DNA from: a virus | Length of the DNA: 28,248 bases | Virus record (IMG/VR): IMGVR_UViG_3300013114_000324 | Location: 1-28,248 of that record | Reading direction: 5' to 3' (one strand) | Shown: piece after piece, positions 4,205-20,407 of the stretch | Position numbering within the stretch: the first letter of the stretch is position 1 | Layout of the letters: each line of letters starts with the position of its first letter | Program-made: the position numbers and the translations under genes | The notes under the pieces: model-generated | Databases searched by the model: none | Told to the model about the DNA's origin: nothing | Seen by the model: the letters and a program-made list of their open reading frames with translations, nothing else

Positions 4205-6118
4205 ATGGCAGATAATCAATTACCCTCCCTATACCAGCAATACATTCATTTATCAAGATACTCTCGTTACCGTTATGAAGACAATCGACGAGAAACATGG
4301 GAAGAAACAGTAGACAGATACTTTACTTTCTTCGCAGAACATTTAAAGGAGACATGTAGTTATAATTTGTCAAAAGATCTTAAAGAAAAACTTCAAGATT
4401 CTGTATTAAATTTAGAAACAATGCCTTCTATGCGCTGTCTTATGACTGCTGGAGAGGCATTACATCGCGAGAATGTCGCGGGTTATAATTGTTCATTTGT
4501 AGCAATTGATAACCCACGTGCATTTGACGAAATACTTTATATCTTAATGAATGGTACGGGCGTTGGCTTTAGTGTTGAACGCCAAATGATTAATGAAATG
4601 CCCCGAGTTGCTGATGATTTTTATCCAACAGAAACTACTATTGTAGTAAGTGACTCTAAATTGGGTTGGGCCAAAGCACTCAAAGAATTAGTTCATCTAT
4701 TGTACGGCGGACAAATTCCTGTATGGGATTTGACGCGAGTTAGAGCCGCAGGTTCTCCATTAAAAACATTTGGTGGTAGAGCATCAGGTCCAGAACCTTT
4801 AGAAGACTTATTTAATTTTTGTGTAGGTATTTTCAAAGGCGCCGCTGGACGTAGACTAACATCCTTAGAGTGTCATGATATTACATGTAAAATTGCGGAG
4901 ATAGTAGTAGTAGGTGGTGTAAGGCGTTCTGCGTTGATCAGTTTGTCAAATTTGTCTGACGACAGAATGCGTTTAGCAAAATCAGGACAGTGGTGGGAAA
5001 CACAAACTCAACGAGCATTAGCAAATAATTCTGCTTGTTACACTGAACGTCCTGATATTGGTATTTTTATGGAAGAATGGAAATCTCTCTATGAGTCCAA
5101 ATCCGGTGAGCGTGGCATATTTAACAGACGTGCCGCTAAAGAACAAGCAGGCAAAAATGAACGTAGAGATCCAAATCATAATTTTGGCACCAACCCTTGC
5201 AGTGAAATTATTTTAAGATCAGAAGAATTTTGTAATTTATCTGAAGTAGTAATTCGTCCAAACGATACTTTTGAAACATTAAAAGATAAAGTTATTAATG
5301 CAACTATTTTAGGCACATTCCAATCAACACTTACTAATTTTAGATATCTTAATAAGAGATGGTTACAGAATTGTGATGAAGAGCGTTTATTGGGTGTTTC
5401 TTTAACAGGTATTATGGATAATCCATTAACAAATGGTAAAAAGAAAGGTTTAGAGGAATTACTCACAGAACTTAAAAAAGTTGCTGTTGCTACTAATAAG
5501 GATTGGGCAAAGAGACTTGGTATTAATCAATCTGTTGCAATTACTTGTGTAAAACCATCAGGTACAGTAAGTCAATTAGTAGATAGCGCAAGTGGAATAC
5601 ATGCAAGACATAATCAATATTATATTCGAACAGTTAGAGCAGATAAAAAAGATCCATTAGCAAAAATGATGATAGAAGCAGGATTTCCTGTAGAAGATGA
5701 TGTAACAAAACCAGAACATACTGTAGTATTTTCCTTTCCAATGAAAGGGCCACAATATGGTGTTTATAGAAAAGATATGACAGCCATAGAACAGTTAGAA
5801 TTATGGAAAATTTATCAAGATAATTGGTGTGAACACAAACCCTCAGTAACAATTAGTGTCAAAGAACACGAGTGGTTGGAGGTCGGAGCGTGGGTTTATG
5901 AACACTTTGATCAAATGTCTGGTGTATCGTTTTTACCGTTTAGTGATCATACGTATCGGCAAGCACCATACCAAGATTGCACTAAAGAACAGTATGAACA
6001 AGCAATGCAAAGTATGCCCAAAAATGTAAGTTGGGAAACTTTAAGCGAATATGAACAACAAGATATGACTACAAGCAGTCAAGAATTAGCATGTGTAGCC
6101 GGAGGATGCGAAATATGA
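4205..6118 (+). CDS. nrdJ: Class II (adenosylcobalamin-dependent) ribonucleotide reductase
   Basis: The enzyme reduces ribonucleotides to deoxyribonucleotides for phage DNA synthesis, using coenzyme B12 to start radical chemistry. The 637-residue protein has the family's landmarks in order: YNCSF near residue 96 (first active-site Cys), NGTGVGFS, NPCSEI near residue 332 (radical Cys and catalytic Glu; the usual Gly after Cys is Ser), and CVKPSGTVSQL near residue 450. The C-terminus CVAGGCEI has two Cys five apart (630 and 635), which relay electrons from thioredoxin or glutaredoxin. It most resembles the monomeric Lactobacillus RTPR type (about 740 residues) but is about 100 residues shorter. 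It heads an operon in which each of the next three genes starts inside the preceding stop codon, including a glutaredoxin that could be its reductant. Start chosen by AAGGA 8 nt upstream. Confidence 0.93.
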   Translation: MADNQLPSLYQQYIHLSRYSRYRYEDNRRETWEETVDRYFTFFAEHLKETCSYNLSKDLKEKLQDSVLNLETMPSMRCLMTAGEALHRENVAGYNCSFVAIDNPRAFDEILYILMNGTGVGFSVERQMINEMPRVADDFYPTETTIVVSDSKLGWAKALKELVHLLYGGQIPVWDLTRVRAAGSPLKTFGGRASGPEPLEDLFNFCVGIFKGAAGRRLTSLECHDITCKIAEIVVVGGVRRSALISLSNLSDDRMRLAKSGQWWETQTQRALANNSACYTERPDIGIFMEEWKSLYESKSGERGIFNRRAAKEQAGKNERRDPNHNFGTNPCSEIILRSEEFCNLSEVVIRPNDTFETLKDKVINATILGTFQSTLTNFRYLNKRWLQNCDEERLLGVSLTGIMDNPLTNGKKKGLEELLTELKKVAVATNKDWAKRLGINQSVAITCVKPSGTVSQLVDSASGIHARHNQYYIRTVRADKKDPLAKMMIEAGFPVEDDVTKPEHTVVFSFPMKGPQYGVYRKDMTAIEQLELWKIYQDNWCEHKPSVTISVKEHEWLEVGAWVYEHFDQMSGVSFLPFSDHTYRQAPYQDCTKEQYEQAMQSMPKNVSWETLSEYEQQDMTTSSQELACVAGGCEI

Positions 6119-15349: not shown

Positions 15350-15781
15350 TTAGAACTTAATTTCGATCTCCTTTGGCTTCAGTGCTTCAGGTACTTCCTG
15401 TTTAAGACTAACCTTTAACATTCCGTCCTTGCATACTGCCGATACAACTTCGACATATTCTGCCAAGTTCCAAGAGCGTCTGAAGTCGCGTGTTGCGATG
15501 CCCTTGTGTAGCCAATTCTGTTCGTCTGAGTCCTCTTTGTGACCAGCGACAGTCAATTGTCCATTATCAACAGTTACTGAAAGATCACCCTGAGAAAACC
15601 CAGCAACGGCAATGGTAATTACATACTCAGAGTCGCTGATGCGTTCAATATTGTAGGGTGGGTAGGACGGTGCTTGATGTGTAAAAAGCCTGTCCATATC
15701 GCCAAATAAGCGATCGAATCCGACCATGTGTCGGTTAAGTGTGGGGATAAGATTTCCCGCAGTGATTCTATACTCAGTCAT
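15350..15781 (-). CDS. Small heat-shock protein Hsp20 (IbpA-like chaperone)
   Basis: The 143-residue product is an alpha-crystallin-type holdase. It begins MTEYRITAGNLIPTLNRH and has the FDRLFGDMDRLF N-terminal helix. The alpha-crystallin domain includes YPPYNIERISDSEYVITIAVAGF, LTVAGHKED, RDFRRSWNLAEYVEVVSA and KDGMLKVSLKQEVPE, and the protein ends PKEIEIKF (the IxI-like C-terminal motif is IEI). It binds unfolding proteins in the cytoplasm without ATP. Hsp20 is a common auxiliary gene in marine T4-like phages. It is unusual here in having its own perfect sigma70-type promoter, a strong AAGGAGG ribosome binding site and a dedicated terminator, so it can be expressed independently of the surrounding late genes. 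Confidence 0.93.
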   Translation of the reverse strand: MTEYRITAGNLIPTLNRHMVGFDRLFGDMDRLFTHQAPSYPPYNIERISDSEYVITIAVAGFSQGDLSVTVDNGQLTVAGHKEDSDEQNWLHKGIATRDFRRSWNLAEYVEVVSAVCKDGMLKVSLKQEVPEALKPKEIEIKF

Positions 15782-18287: not shown

Positions 18288-18925
18288 TGATTGATGAACA
18301 ACAAGAAACTCAAAACATTACAGACGCAAGTCATCATCAAAACAATGCAGAGGCAAATATTATGGCAACAGCACAAGAAAAAGCAATAGATTTTTCCACA
18401 ATAGCAGGTGATGAGAAACTTGAATGGAATGCTTGGTATGATATACTATATGCGTTTAATATTGAGTTTATTACTGCGGTGTTGTTAATTATTCTTGTTA
18501 GTTATATATTAATACGTACTCCTGCGAAACTTTACATCAAATTCTTAACAATTCCCTTGCTTTTTTTCTTATTATATAGTACAATGGATAAGTTAAATGA
18601 CGTTCTAGGGTATGCTTATCCTACGATTCCTGTTGGAAAAGTAATTGTAATGGACGGCCAAAGACAAGGTAAAGTTATTGAATTATGGGTTAAACATTTA
18701 GGTAAAACAGATACTCGATTATATAAATTACCGTATACTAAAAAATTGCAGAAAAAGTTAAAGCAAGCAAAAGAAGCACGAGAACAAGGTAATCCAATGG
18801 TCTTAGAATGGAAGAGAGCCGCTAAACATAAAGGACGAGCAGGGCAACGTAATCCAGGAAAATTTATAGTATATAATTTACGTGACTTAATGGAAGGGCC
18901 AAAAAAGAATTATGAGCAACAATGA
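18287..18925 (+). CDS. Two-helix membrane protein of the ExbB/ExbD-like operon
   Basis: I chose the ATG at 18287, which overlaps the previous stop by one base (an ATG at 18275 is also possible). The 212-residue product has an acidic, Gln/Asn/His-rich N-terminus and two close hydrophobic segments (about 62-82 and 90-105). A basic cytoplasmic or periplasmic tail follows, with a VGKVIVMDGQRQGKVIELWV beta-like part and a Lys-rich helix. It may be the third component of the membrane complex encoded by the two preceding genes. The end overlaps the clpS start. I do not recognise a family. Confidence 0.65.
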   Translation: MIDEQQETQNITDASHHQNNAEANIMATAQEKAIDFSTIAGDEKLEWNAWYDILYAFNIEFITAVLLIILVSYILIRTPAKLYIKFLTIPLLFFLLYSTMDKLNDVLGYAYPTIPVGKVIVMDGQRQGKVIELWVKHLGKTDTRLYKLPYTKKLQKKLKQAKEAREQGNPMVLEWKRAAKHKGRAGQRNPGKFIVYNLRDLMEGPKKNYEQQ

Positions 18926-19224
18926 TGTCAGATACTGCAACTAAAATAGAAGAAAATTTAAAGTTAAAAGAACCACCTTTGTATAAGGTAGTTTTTATTA
19001 ATGATGATGTTACACCAATGGATTTTGTTGTAAATTGTTTAATGTCTATTTTTATGCATGCCATTGATGCCGCACAAGATTTGACACATAAAATACATCA
19101 AGAAGGGTTTGCTATAGTAGCAGTATTGCCGTATGAAATAGCAGAACAAAAAGGTATTGAAACCACTGTACTATCTCGTAACAATAATTACCCGTTACAA
19201 GTAAAAATAGAAGCAGATAATTAA
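18922..19224 (+). CDS. clpS: ClpS, adaptor of the ClpAP protease
   Basis: This 100-residue protein is a full-length ClpS. PPLYKVVFINDDVTPMDFV carries the N27-D28-D29 residues that hold the alpha-amino group of N-degron substrates, KIHQEG has the pocket His (H59), and the fold ends YPLQVKIE. The first 18 residues match the flexible extension that enters the ClpA pore. In bacteria ClpS delivers proteins with N-terminal Leu, Phe, Tyr or Trp to ClpAP and blocks ClpAP degradation of ssrA-tagged proteins. A phage copy could steer the host protease during infection. It overlaps the preceding membrane gene (ATGATG; Met1 or Met2 can be the start), and the phage tmRNA lies 0.7 kb downstream. Confidence 0.93.
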   Translation: MMSDTATKIEENLKLKEPPLYKVVFINDDVTPMDFVVNCLMSIFMHAIDAAQDLTHKIHQEGFAIVAVLPYEIAEQKGIETTVLSRNNNYPLQVKIEADN

Positions 19225-19421: not shown

Positions 19422-19762
19422 TTGATTCAACACATATAAGATTAGAATGTCTTAAATTAGCAGGTGGTGATTTGACTTTAGCATCAGAGTATGTTAAGTT
19501 TGTCACAGATGAGGCCGAGAAAAAATATGGTCCTTCTAGCTATATGGAAATTTATAATGACTATAAAGACATTTTCGATAAAGCAATGGGACAAAAATCA
19601 CAAAGTTTTGATGATGTACAAACAGCATCAAGATTTTATACTACAGGAAGTTCTGTAGATGTGCCACCGCAAAATATATCTTATGGTGATAAAGAAGAAG
19701 TAAAAGAACATGTTATAGAAAATGATAATTTCGCTAAACCACAATTTAAGGATGCATGGTAA
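19418..19762 (+). CDS. Hypothetical protein
   Basis: A 114-residue acidic protein whose ATG overlaps the previous stop and whose last base is shared with the bL33 start. The first 60 residues look like a helical bundle ([31 protein letters not shown]), and the rest is polar and probably disordered. No family is recognised. The ordering within the bL33 transcript suggests late expression. Confidence 0.6.
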
Positions 19763-19935
19763 TGGCAAGTAAAAATATTACAATTATTAAATTAGTATCA
19801 ACTGCTGGTACCGGGCATTATTATACCACAACCGTTAATAAAAGAAAGATGGGTGGCAATAAACTTAAATTAAAAAAGTATGACCCAGTTGTACGCAAAC
19901 ATGTTTTATATGAAGAAAAGAAAATAAGTAAGTAA
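19762..19935 (+). CDS. rpmG: Ribosomal protein bL33
   Basis: The 57-residue protein is full-length bL33. It begins [18 protein letters not shown] and ends [21 protein letters not shown], which follow the bacterial pattern nearly residue by residue. The zinc-binding Cys of C+ forms are absent, so it is the Cys-free form used by Gram-negative bacteria. bL33 sits near the E site of the 50S subunit and is dispensable in E. coli, so exchange on assembled ribosomes is conceivable. Virus-encoded bL33 has been reported in surveys of viral ribosomal proteins but is rare compared with bS21. The start ATG overlaps the preceding TAA, and the tmRNA acceptor piece begins within a few bases after the stop. 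Confidence 0.93.
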
Positions 19936-19938
19936 CTT

Positions 19939-20002
19939 TATTGTCGTATGATGTAGACAATATGCATTCTGGACGTGGGTTCGATCCCCACCACCTCCAC
20001 CA
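19939..20002 (+). ncRNA. ssrA: tmRNA acceptor piece (3' tRNA-like half) of a circularly permuted ssrA
   Basis: This segment is the 3' end of a tmRNA but lies upstream of the 5' end. A T arm GTGGG-TTCGATC-CCCAC (19975-19991) is followed by acceptor strand CACCTCC (19992-19998), A, and CCA (20000-20002). ATTCTGGAC before the T arm matches the conserved TTCGGAC of E. coli tmRNA. CACCTCC pairs over 7 bp with GGGGGTG at 20195-20201, including the conserved third G-U pair of tmRNA acceptor stems. GTCGTAT near 19943 can pair with ATACGGAC of the coding piece with one bulge (P2). The 5' boundary is approximate. Confidence 0.85.
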
Positions 20003-20015
20003 AAAGGAGATTAAA

Positions 20016-20120
20016 ATGAACTATAATACATTGATAGGAGGAAGCGACGATGCGATTCCTCCGGAACAAGATAAAAACATTACCAAGGCCTTTCAGGAAA
20101 GCTATAGAATATATGTTTAA
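20016..20120 (+). CDS. Small ORF (34 aa) in the tmRNA intervening segment
   Basis: The ORF starts 14 nt after the acceptor CCA, with AAGGAG (20004-20009) placed right for initiation. It encodes a polar peptide, MNYNTLIGGSDDAIPPE and onward, with no membrane segment. It overlaps the next small ORF by 8 nt in another frame. The good ribosome binding site and overlap argue for translation, but the peptide matches nothing I recognise. Confidence 0.55.
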   Translation: MNYNTLIGGSDDAIPPEQDKNITKAFQESYRIYV

Positions 20121-20193
20121 AATATATGTCGCATGGAGTATCTGTGCCGACATAATTATTATTGGTGGTATAGTATACTTAATCTTTTTTTGA
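20113..20193 (+). CDS. Small single-span membrane peptide (26 aa) in the tmRNA intervening segment
   Basis: The 26-residue ORF starts MFKIYVAW and is followed by a hydrophobic stretch (ADIIIIGGIVYLIFF), a plausible single membrane helix. Its stop TGA ends at 20193, one nucleotide before the coding piece of the tmRNA starts at 20195. Translation probably depends on the preceding ORF, because no strong ribosome binding site is visible. Confidence 0.5.
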   Translation: MFKIYVAWSICADIIIIGGIVYLIFF

Positions 20194-20194
20194 C

Positions 20195-20376
20195 GGGGGT
20201 GACATGGCTTCGACAGGGTGAGGACGATATACGGACGACACATGGGAGCAGTTCCATGTTAAAAAACAGCAAACTAAAATAATTGCAAACGACGATTATT
20301 ACGAATACGCATTAGCCGCTTAATCACGGCAGTATTCCGGGGTATAGAGCATACCTTGTTACCCAATCTGCTTTTT
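20195..20376 (+). ncRNA. ssrA: tmRNA coding piece with tag ANDDYYEYALAA
   Basis: GGGGGTG ACATGGCTTCGACAGGG matches the 5' tRNA-like half of tmRNA (E. coli: GGGGCTG then GGATTCGACGGG). A 7-bp hairpin CATGGGA/TTCCATG (20241-20258) sits at the PK1 region. The resume codon GCA is at 20285-20287. The tag reads A-N-D-D-Y-Y-E-Y-A-L-A-A and ends in TAA at 20321-20323. The AL-A-A terminus is the ClpXP/ClpAP degron, and the TAATT before GCA resembles the conserved pre-tag sequence. The piece should act with SmpB to rescue stalled ribosomes. The 3' end is approximate and followed by a terminator. Confidence 0.88.
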
Positions 20377-20377
20377 T

Positions 20378-20407
20378 GGAAGGGCCCGTTTAGGGCCTTT
20401 CCTTATT
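20378..20407 (+). terminator. Intrinsic terminator after the tmRNA
   Basis: GGAAGGGCCC (20378-20387) pairs with GGGCCTTTCC (20393-20402) around GTTTA, a 10-bp stem with one G-U pair. The following TTATTCT is a weak U-tract. It overlaps the stop of the convergent oxygenase gene. Confidence 0.7.

Follow-up and report, generated by a model that had tools for sequence, protein, structure and literature searches.

Permuted two-piece tmRNAs have already been described in marine phages such as Melnitz and Mosig, and the sections of that work covered here count 53 two-piece forms among 133 unique phage tmRNA structures (PMC9004378). The earlier note on this DNA had listed such tmRNAs as known from bacterial groups, a list to which these published phage cases must be added. 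The same sections mention a glutamine riboswitch but no genes in the intervening segment (IVS) that separates the two pieces (PMC9004378). The tmRNA analysed here is likewise permuted, phage-borne and marine. It differs in its IVS: that of Mosig, which we located in this analysis, forms a 44-nt hairpin and has no long ORF, whereas the IVS studied here is 192 nt long and holds two ORFs.

A tmRNA survey provides two further comparisons. The parts of it covered here describe group I introns with a homing endonuclease in tmRNA genes (36 of 883 intron forms), and two permuted IVSs, one containing a tRNA and the other a repeat (PMC11915505). The group I case resembles ours in that the protein gene sits within precursor RNA that is removed, or in our case is expected to be removed. 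There, however, a self-splicing intron lies in the T-loop, whereas here the genes lie in the IVS of a permuted tmRNA that has neither an intron nor a homing endonuclease: the Rfam matches are to tmRNA only and the ORFs encode 34 and 47 amino acids. The tRNA and repeat IVSs resemble ours in holding foreign content; the words ‘ORF’ and ‘open reading’ are absent from the survey text (PMC11915505). Our literature search, which worked from titles and abstract openings and covered subscription journals thinly, found no report of protein genes in a permuted tmRNA IVS. The permuted tmRNA of phages is thus known, and protein genes in its IVS are the feature for which we found no report.

The window, meaning the whole 28,248-nt stretch that was analysed, is an IMG/VR virus record, and its permuted tmRNA is real. 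The Rfam model RF04321 (tmRNA_permuted) matches 19942-20323 on the plus strand with 119.7 bits (cut-off 47; model positions 1-213) and beta_tmRNA matches 19891-20405 with 99.6 bits (cut-off 84), both with the pieces in permuted order; these two are the only Rfam matches above cut-off in the window. From 5' to 3', all on the plus strand, the RF04321 alignment and the covariance-model matches give an acceptor piece with its CCA end (19942..20002), the IVS (20003..20194) and an mRNA-like coding piece (20195..20405), in which the alignment and the sequence place the tag ANDDYYEYALAA, with its alanine end and stop, at 20285..20323. The acceptor stem pairs 5' GGGGGTG (20195-20201) with 3' CACCTCC over 7 bp, with a G-U third pair, and is followed by ACCA. 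The earlier note had proposed this two-piece architecture, with the same acceptor pairing, tag and IVS length, and had suggested the covariance-model search for the order of the pieces; every one of these points held. ARAGORN returned two overlapping tmRNA calls, both with tags other than ANDDYYEYALAA. A terminator-like hairpin in the coding piece (20378-20402, plus strand) was the one such site found where 0.9 were expected. The IVS has the same length in four other loci (L123, L125, L127 and L130), and near-identical copies in other records (L125, L127, L130 and L147) make a single assembly error unlikely.

Our preferred reading, to which we give a probability of about 0.78, is a permuted tmRNA gene with a removable IVS that houses two translationally coupled ORFs as a cassette. 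Sequence comparison supplies the tmRNA structure, the selection on the membrane gene, the start and frame of the leader, the covariation of the closing helix and the presence or absence of the cassette; folding supplies a predicted hairpin around the second Shine-Dalgarno (SD) sequence.

The tmRNA lies just downstream of a gene for ribosomal protein bL33 (19756..19935, plus strand; PF00471, 54.3 bits), with a gene for the N-degron adaptor ClpS further upstream (18922..19224, plus strand; PF02617, 85.3 bits). Their position beside the tmRNA suggests a phage module for translation and proteolysis. Among the distinct cassette IVS loci, many of which are short, bL33 was detected beside two (L121, the copy in the window, and L123) and ClpS beside L121 only. 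The window also encodes a phage-borne HSP20 small heat-shock protein (15350-15781) and a ribonucleotide reductase (phrog_367; 4205-6118).

The second ORF of the cassette (20050..20193, plus strand) encodes a 47-aa protein with a single membrane span, read from the sequence, and has its own SD, GGAGG. A second ORF had been noted before, read as a 26-aa membrane peptide; the ORF stands, but the 26 residues are its C-terminal part, and we rejected that reading because it starts at an internal ATG while the longer frame has its own SD. We collected 79 distinct phage IVSs with this family, yielding 72 unique coding sequences and 68 proteins of 34-47 aa (script-called) in two sequence types, ...GIVYLIFF and ...GIIALLLGYGKISF. 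Pairwise Nei-Gojobori dN/dS across the 72 coding sequences was about 0.2 (median 0.22, 10th-90th percentile 0.10-0.38, over 1105 pairs restricted to pS 0.1-0.6). It was 0.19 between the window and L144; between the window and L123, whose membrane proteins are 66% identical, synonymous sites are saturated. Past the overlap with the leader, the ORF frame in the 159-nt class had a pN/pS of 0.20, whereas the two alternative frames had 0.99 and 3.46. A dN/dS below 1 in relatives had been named in advance as support for the ORFs, and for the membrane ORF it is strongly borne out; by these comparisons it is a conserved protein under coding selection. It had no tblastn match in 50,697 named phage records, where the BLAST low-complexity filter may hide such proteins, and neither the window protein nor one family representative had a family match at E 0.01. 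Against PHROGs the 47-aa ORF gave two weak matches of unknown function (E 0.049 and 0.21).

As the earlier note stated, the stop codon of this ORF, TGA, ends one base before the coding piece. Stop codon and following base form TGAC at 20191..20194 (plus strand; TGAT in most relatives), opposite the ACCA tail. TGAT, however, is also the end of 21 of the 31 phage IVSs that lack such ORFs, so the position of the stop by itself proves nothing, and we dropped it as independent support.

The first ORF follows an SD, AAAGGAG (SD1; 20003..20009, plus strand), that abuts the CCA, and runs for 34 aa (20016..20120, plus strand), overlapping the membrane ORF in the +1 frame; the earlier note had both, with the SD read as AAGGAG. 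A leader start lies about 13 nt after the CCA (10-16 in those listed) in 73 of the 73 eligible IVSs, those whose membrane ORF starts 25-70 nt in; GTG is used in 36, ATG in 34 and TTG in 3. The leader frame stays open past the second start in all 73, against 27 starts with 5 open in one of the other frames and none in the other. In the remaining six of the 79 IVSs the membrane gene either lies further in (L154, L246 and L273) or starts directly at SD1 (L175, L236 and L254). The IVSs of L246 and L273, 260 and 256 nt long, have an extra ORF upstream of the cassette that ends ..YEDLCM or ..YDDLCM; an ORF with the YEDLCM ending stands alone in L498 and appears as YEDLCK in L515.

The residues of the leader are only weakly constrained, with a pN/pS before the overlap of 1.02 in the 159-nt class and 0.51 in the 177-nt class, and the 34-aa ORF had no match in PHROGs. 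The membrane ORF shows less synonymous change inside the overlap than outside it (0.327 vs 0.546, and 0.198 vs 0.525). Because start and frame are conserved while residues vary, it is the start and the frame that seem to matter, and the peptide less. Of the ORF conservation expected for the leader, that of the start codon, the frame and the overlap was thus found, and that of the amino acids was weak. We therefore rejected a conserved peptide as the main reading of the 34-aa ORF, which looks more like a coupling leader than a functional peptide.

Coupling is what the predicted folding suggests. A hairpin at 20037..20062 (plus strand), which recurs in two further folds, would enclose the second SD in its stem, paired with the first codons of the membrane gene, and leave the AUG of that gene in the loop, as in most of the structures listed. 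The arms differ in sequence and keep a similar shape: GGAGGAA/UUCCUCC in the window, GGGCAUCU/AGAUGUCC in L123 and AGGGG/CCCCU in others. The mean pairing probability of the SD, which the script picked as the most purine-rich 5-mer, was 0.86 in the 76 IVSs with the membrane gene at least 25 nt in (73 of them with a tested leader) and 0.01 in the three where the gene starts at SD1 with no leader. The shuffle control, made on the stability of the hairpin, gave a z below -1 in 62 of the 76 and not in 14. As the SD is predicted to be hidden where a leader precedes it and free in the three IVSs that lack one, the leader and the membrane gene are likely to be translationally coupled.

SD1 also belongs to a second structure. 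The first bases of the IVS (20003..20014), SD1 among them, fold with the final codons of the membrane gene (20179..20190; both arms on the plus strand) into a closing helix that is predicted by folding and shows covariation across phage tmRNAs. In its register, position 1 after the CCA pairs with the fifth base upstream of the coding piece, and successive pairs follow towards the interior, leaving four bases, mostly TGAT, opposite ACCA. In the 31 phage IVSs that lack such ORFs, where our census criteria detect no ORF behind an SD, the mean pairing over ten positions is 0.80 and each position shows three to four Watson-Crick types; seven other registers give 0.35-0.54. Pairing is 0.98 in the 79 cassette IVSs (other registers 0.57-0.77), with one or two pair types per position, 0.93 in eight IVSs with other genes (0.47-0.70) and 0.61 in 16 alphaproteobacterial host IVSs (0.41-0.52). 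Against shuffles at 0.05, the helix passes in 68 of 79 cassette IVSs, with 11 failing, and in 40 of 63 others. Since it is nearly invariant in cassette IVSs, the covariation comes mainly from the other IVSs. SD1, for its part, lies in one arm of this old helix, and part of its conservation is therefore structural. The SD, the stop codon and the C-terminal codons look like parts of a seemingly older RNA structure as well as of genes.

The cassette is found mostly, and not exclusively, in tmRNA genes. Queried with the membrane proteins of the window and L123, a protein search gave 27 loci. Of the 25 inspected by eye, the majority are flanked by a CCA on one side and a G-rich coding piece on the other, the exceptions being L146, L159, L160, L165, L166 and L167. 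A broader protein search yielded 362 loci. Of the best 80, which are those closest to the query, the script placed 60 in a tmRNA IVS and 14 outside, five more were placed inside by eye (L579, L584, L609, L610 and L618) and the motif was not located in L627. A DNA search for CCTCCACCAAAAGGAGATT, which selects IVSs by the exact SD1 sequence, gave at least 120 stretches; among the 117 loci new to the set, the script recognised a permuted tmRNA in 101. Where Rfam matches were not used, the pieces were called by our own script (T-stem, acceptor pairing and TCGAC), which misses variants. Most loci are related by descent, so these counts do not represent independent events.

Outside tmRNA genes, L562, L563, L565 and L567 have leader, hairpin and membrane ORF with no adjoining tmRNA sequence; L165, a 4.5-kb record without a tmRNA match, retains all three; and L596 and L620 have the leader with a weaker hairpin (-5.2 kcal/mol). 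The hairpin of L580 is stronger, at -10.8 kcal/mol. The converse also occurs: the relative L068 has a coding piece 89% alike over 139 nt, yet an IVS of only 9 nt. The tmRNA of L217, which has the second type of membrane gene, had no blastn match in the 50,697 named phage records.

Among the 119 matches listed from bacterial genomes to SD1 directly after a CCA, the script recognised no permuted tmRNA, a weak search because the 16-base pattern is short. A tmRNA match was present in 270 of 289 alphaproteobacterial genomes, over the cut-off in 263. At 34 host loci (the 30 best matches and four others), 30 IVSs could be parsed, all of 48 nt or less, and four could not. Of five further host regions with longer matches, two were parsed, at 165 nt (with no ORF of 20 aa) and 48 nt; the other three, including the long match L554, were not. 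In Alcaligenes phage QDWS595 (L286) a permuted tmRNA, unannotated in the region fetched, has a 74-nt hairpin IVS and adjoins what by eye are tRNA-like sequences.

Other genes occupy the same position. The IVS of L120 encodes a 146-aa SNase (PF00565, 44.6 bits), that of L128 an ORF that matches phrog_4098 (E 1.1e-10) and continues into the coding piece, those of L253 and L257 an 82-aa protein, and those of L055 and L074 a 41-aa hydrophobic peptide. The ICINNYS family (six members of 35-36 aa, pN/pS 0.33) ends inside the coding piece. Nine of ten IVS proteins scanned had no match in PHROGs at E 0.01. We estimated the frequency of such genes from a search with one coding-piece sequence type, which gave at least 120 stretches, of which 116 loci were used. 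Both pieces were present in 108 of the 116, giving 99 unique IVSs, six with the membrane gene and 93 without. An SD-preceded ORF filling at least half of the IVS occurred in 14 of the 55 that are 80-600 nt long (1.1 expected from dinucleotide shuffles), one of which, L468, belongs to the membrane-gene family. By these criteria, 19 of the 99 IVSs contain a gene and 80 do not. An acceptor-piece sample of 39 unique IVSs, 19 of them 80-600 nt long, had such an ORF in three, against 0.4 expected from a simpler shuffle. The IVS appears, from these sequences, to be a cargo site for unrelated small genes in many marine phages.

Two further arrangements were seen. L101 has a 237-nt IVS (after position 1176) with a tRNA-like sequence, by eye. 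In a group of tmRNAs without the closing helix (L004, L017, L018, L020, L082, L118, L122, L124 and L126; pairing 0.37, n=9, with L062 counted in), a single frame is open across the whole IVS and extends into both the acceptor and the coding piece, encoding a peptide with ..WYYTENEWSRLG..PPERN.. In seven loci this frame is under selection (pN/pS 0.36 vs 1.06 and 1.57) and has no clear start. It may be a protein gene that overlaps both tmRNA pieces.

The use of one site by unrelated genes speaks for the main alternative, that the cassette is plain cargo: a small gene in a tolerant spacer, co-transcribed and with no regulatory link to the tmRNA, with the helix serving only tmRNA maturation. The copies of the cassette outside tmRNA genes and the presence of the closing helix in IVSs without such ORFs agree with this. 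Set against it are the pairing, in almost every cassette IVS, of SD1 with the final codons of the membrane gene to form the helix, and the location of 60 (by script) to 65 (with the five by eye) of the best 80 homologs in a tmRNA IVS. We regard it as a substantial contender that falls somewhat short of an even chance.

The mok ORF overlaps hok. As far as the parts of the source covered here describe it, hok is a 52-aa membrane peptide with mok upstream, and the 3' end of its mRNA competes for the mok initiation region (PMC8309996). The cassette is alike in having a small membrane peptide, its span read from sequence, behind an overlapping leader ORF, and, by covariation and fold, a leader initiation region paired with the mRNA 3' end. 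By this analogy the protein might be a toxin, a small membrane-depolarising peptide directed at the host in the late phase of infection or at competing phages. Unlike hok/mok, though, the cassette is embedded in a tmRNA, no sequence relation is shown and no antisense RNA that could serve as antitoxin was found: the six promoter-like sites, one of them on the minus strand inside the IVS, compare with 5.4 expected by chance. The size and topology are those of many harmless small proteins, and at E 0.01 neither the window protein nor the representative matched a family. We consider a toxin unlikely. The idea that the spacer is non-coding and its ORFs are open by chance can be dismissed: TGAT presets the stop at -1, but purifying selection is confined to one frame, the starts are conserved, homologs also occur outside tmRNA genes, and L165 retains the ORFs.

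The preferred reading, a removable IVS with coupled ORFs, suggests how one transcript might be used. Ribosomes would load at SD1 directly after the CCA and translate the leader, which would melt the hairpin hiding the second SD and AUG and allow the 47-aa membrane protein to be made. Its translation would stop on the UGA of the conserved UGAU adjoining the coding piece. The closing helix that contains SD1 would stack on the acceptor stem. Because SD1 lies inside this helix, loading would take place mainly before the 3' arm has been transcribed or while the helix is open, and a precursor restricted in this way would be either tmRNA or mRNA at a given moment. We infer that the ORFs are translated and coupled, that translation competes with tmRNA folding, and that the IVS is released as a free RNA. 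A further step, which we consider doubtful, would make the IVS a built-in sensor: with translation and folding mutually exclusive on one precursor, small proteins would be made only when tmRNA maturation or rescue capacity is short, and ORFs that enter the coding piece (such as the 35-aa ICINNYS family and L128) would be cut before their stop and become substrates of the released tmRNA.

If the preferred reading is true, this tmRNA gene combines two genes on a single transcript, one for a ribosome-rescue RNA and one that serves as mRNA for small proteins. IVS genes are easily overlooked because they lie inside an RNA gene, and ARAGORN misread the window tmRNA itself. The layout would allow a direct test of the competition between RNA maturation and translation on one molecule, and the IVSs point to a reservoir of small phage proteins.
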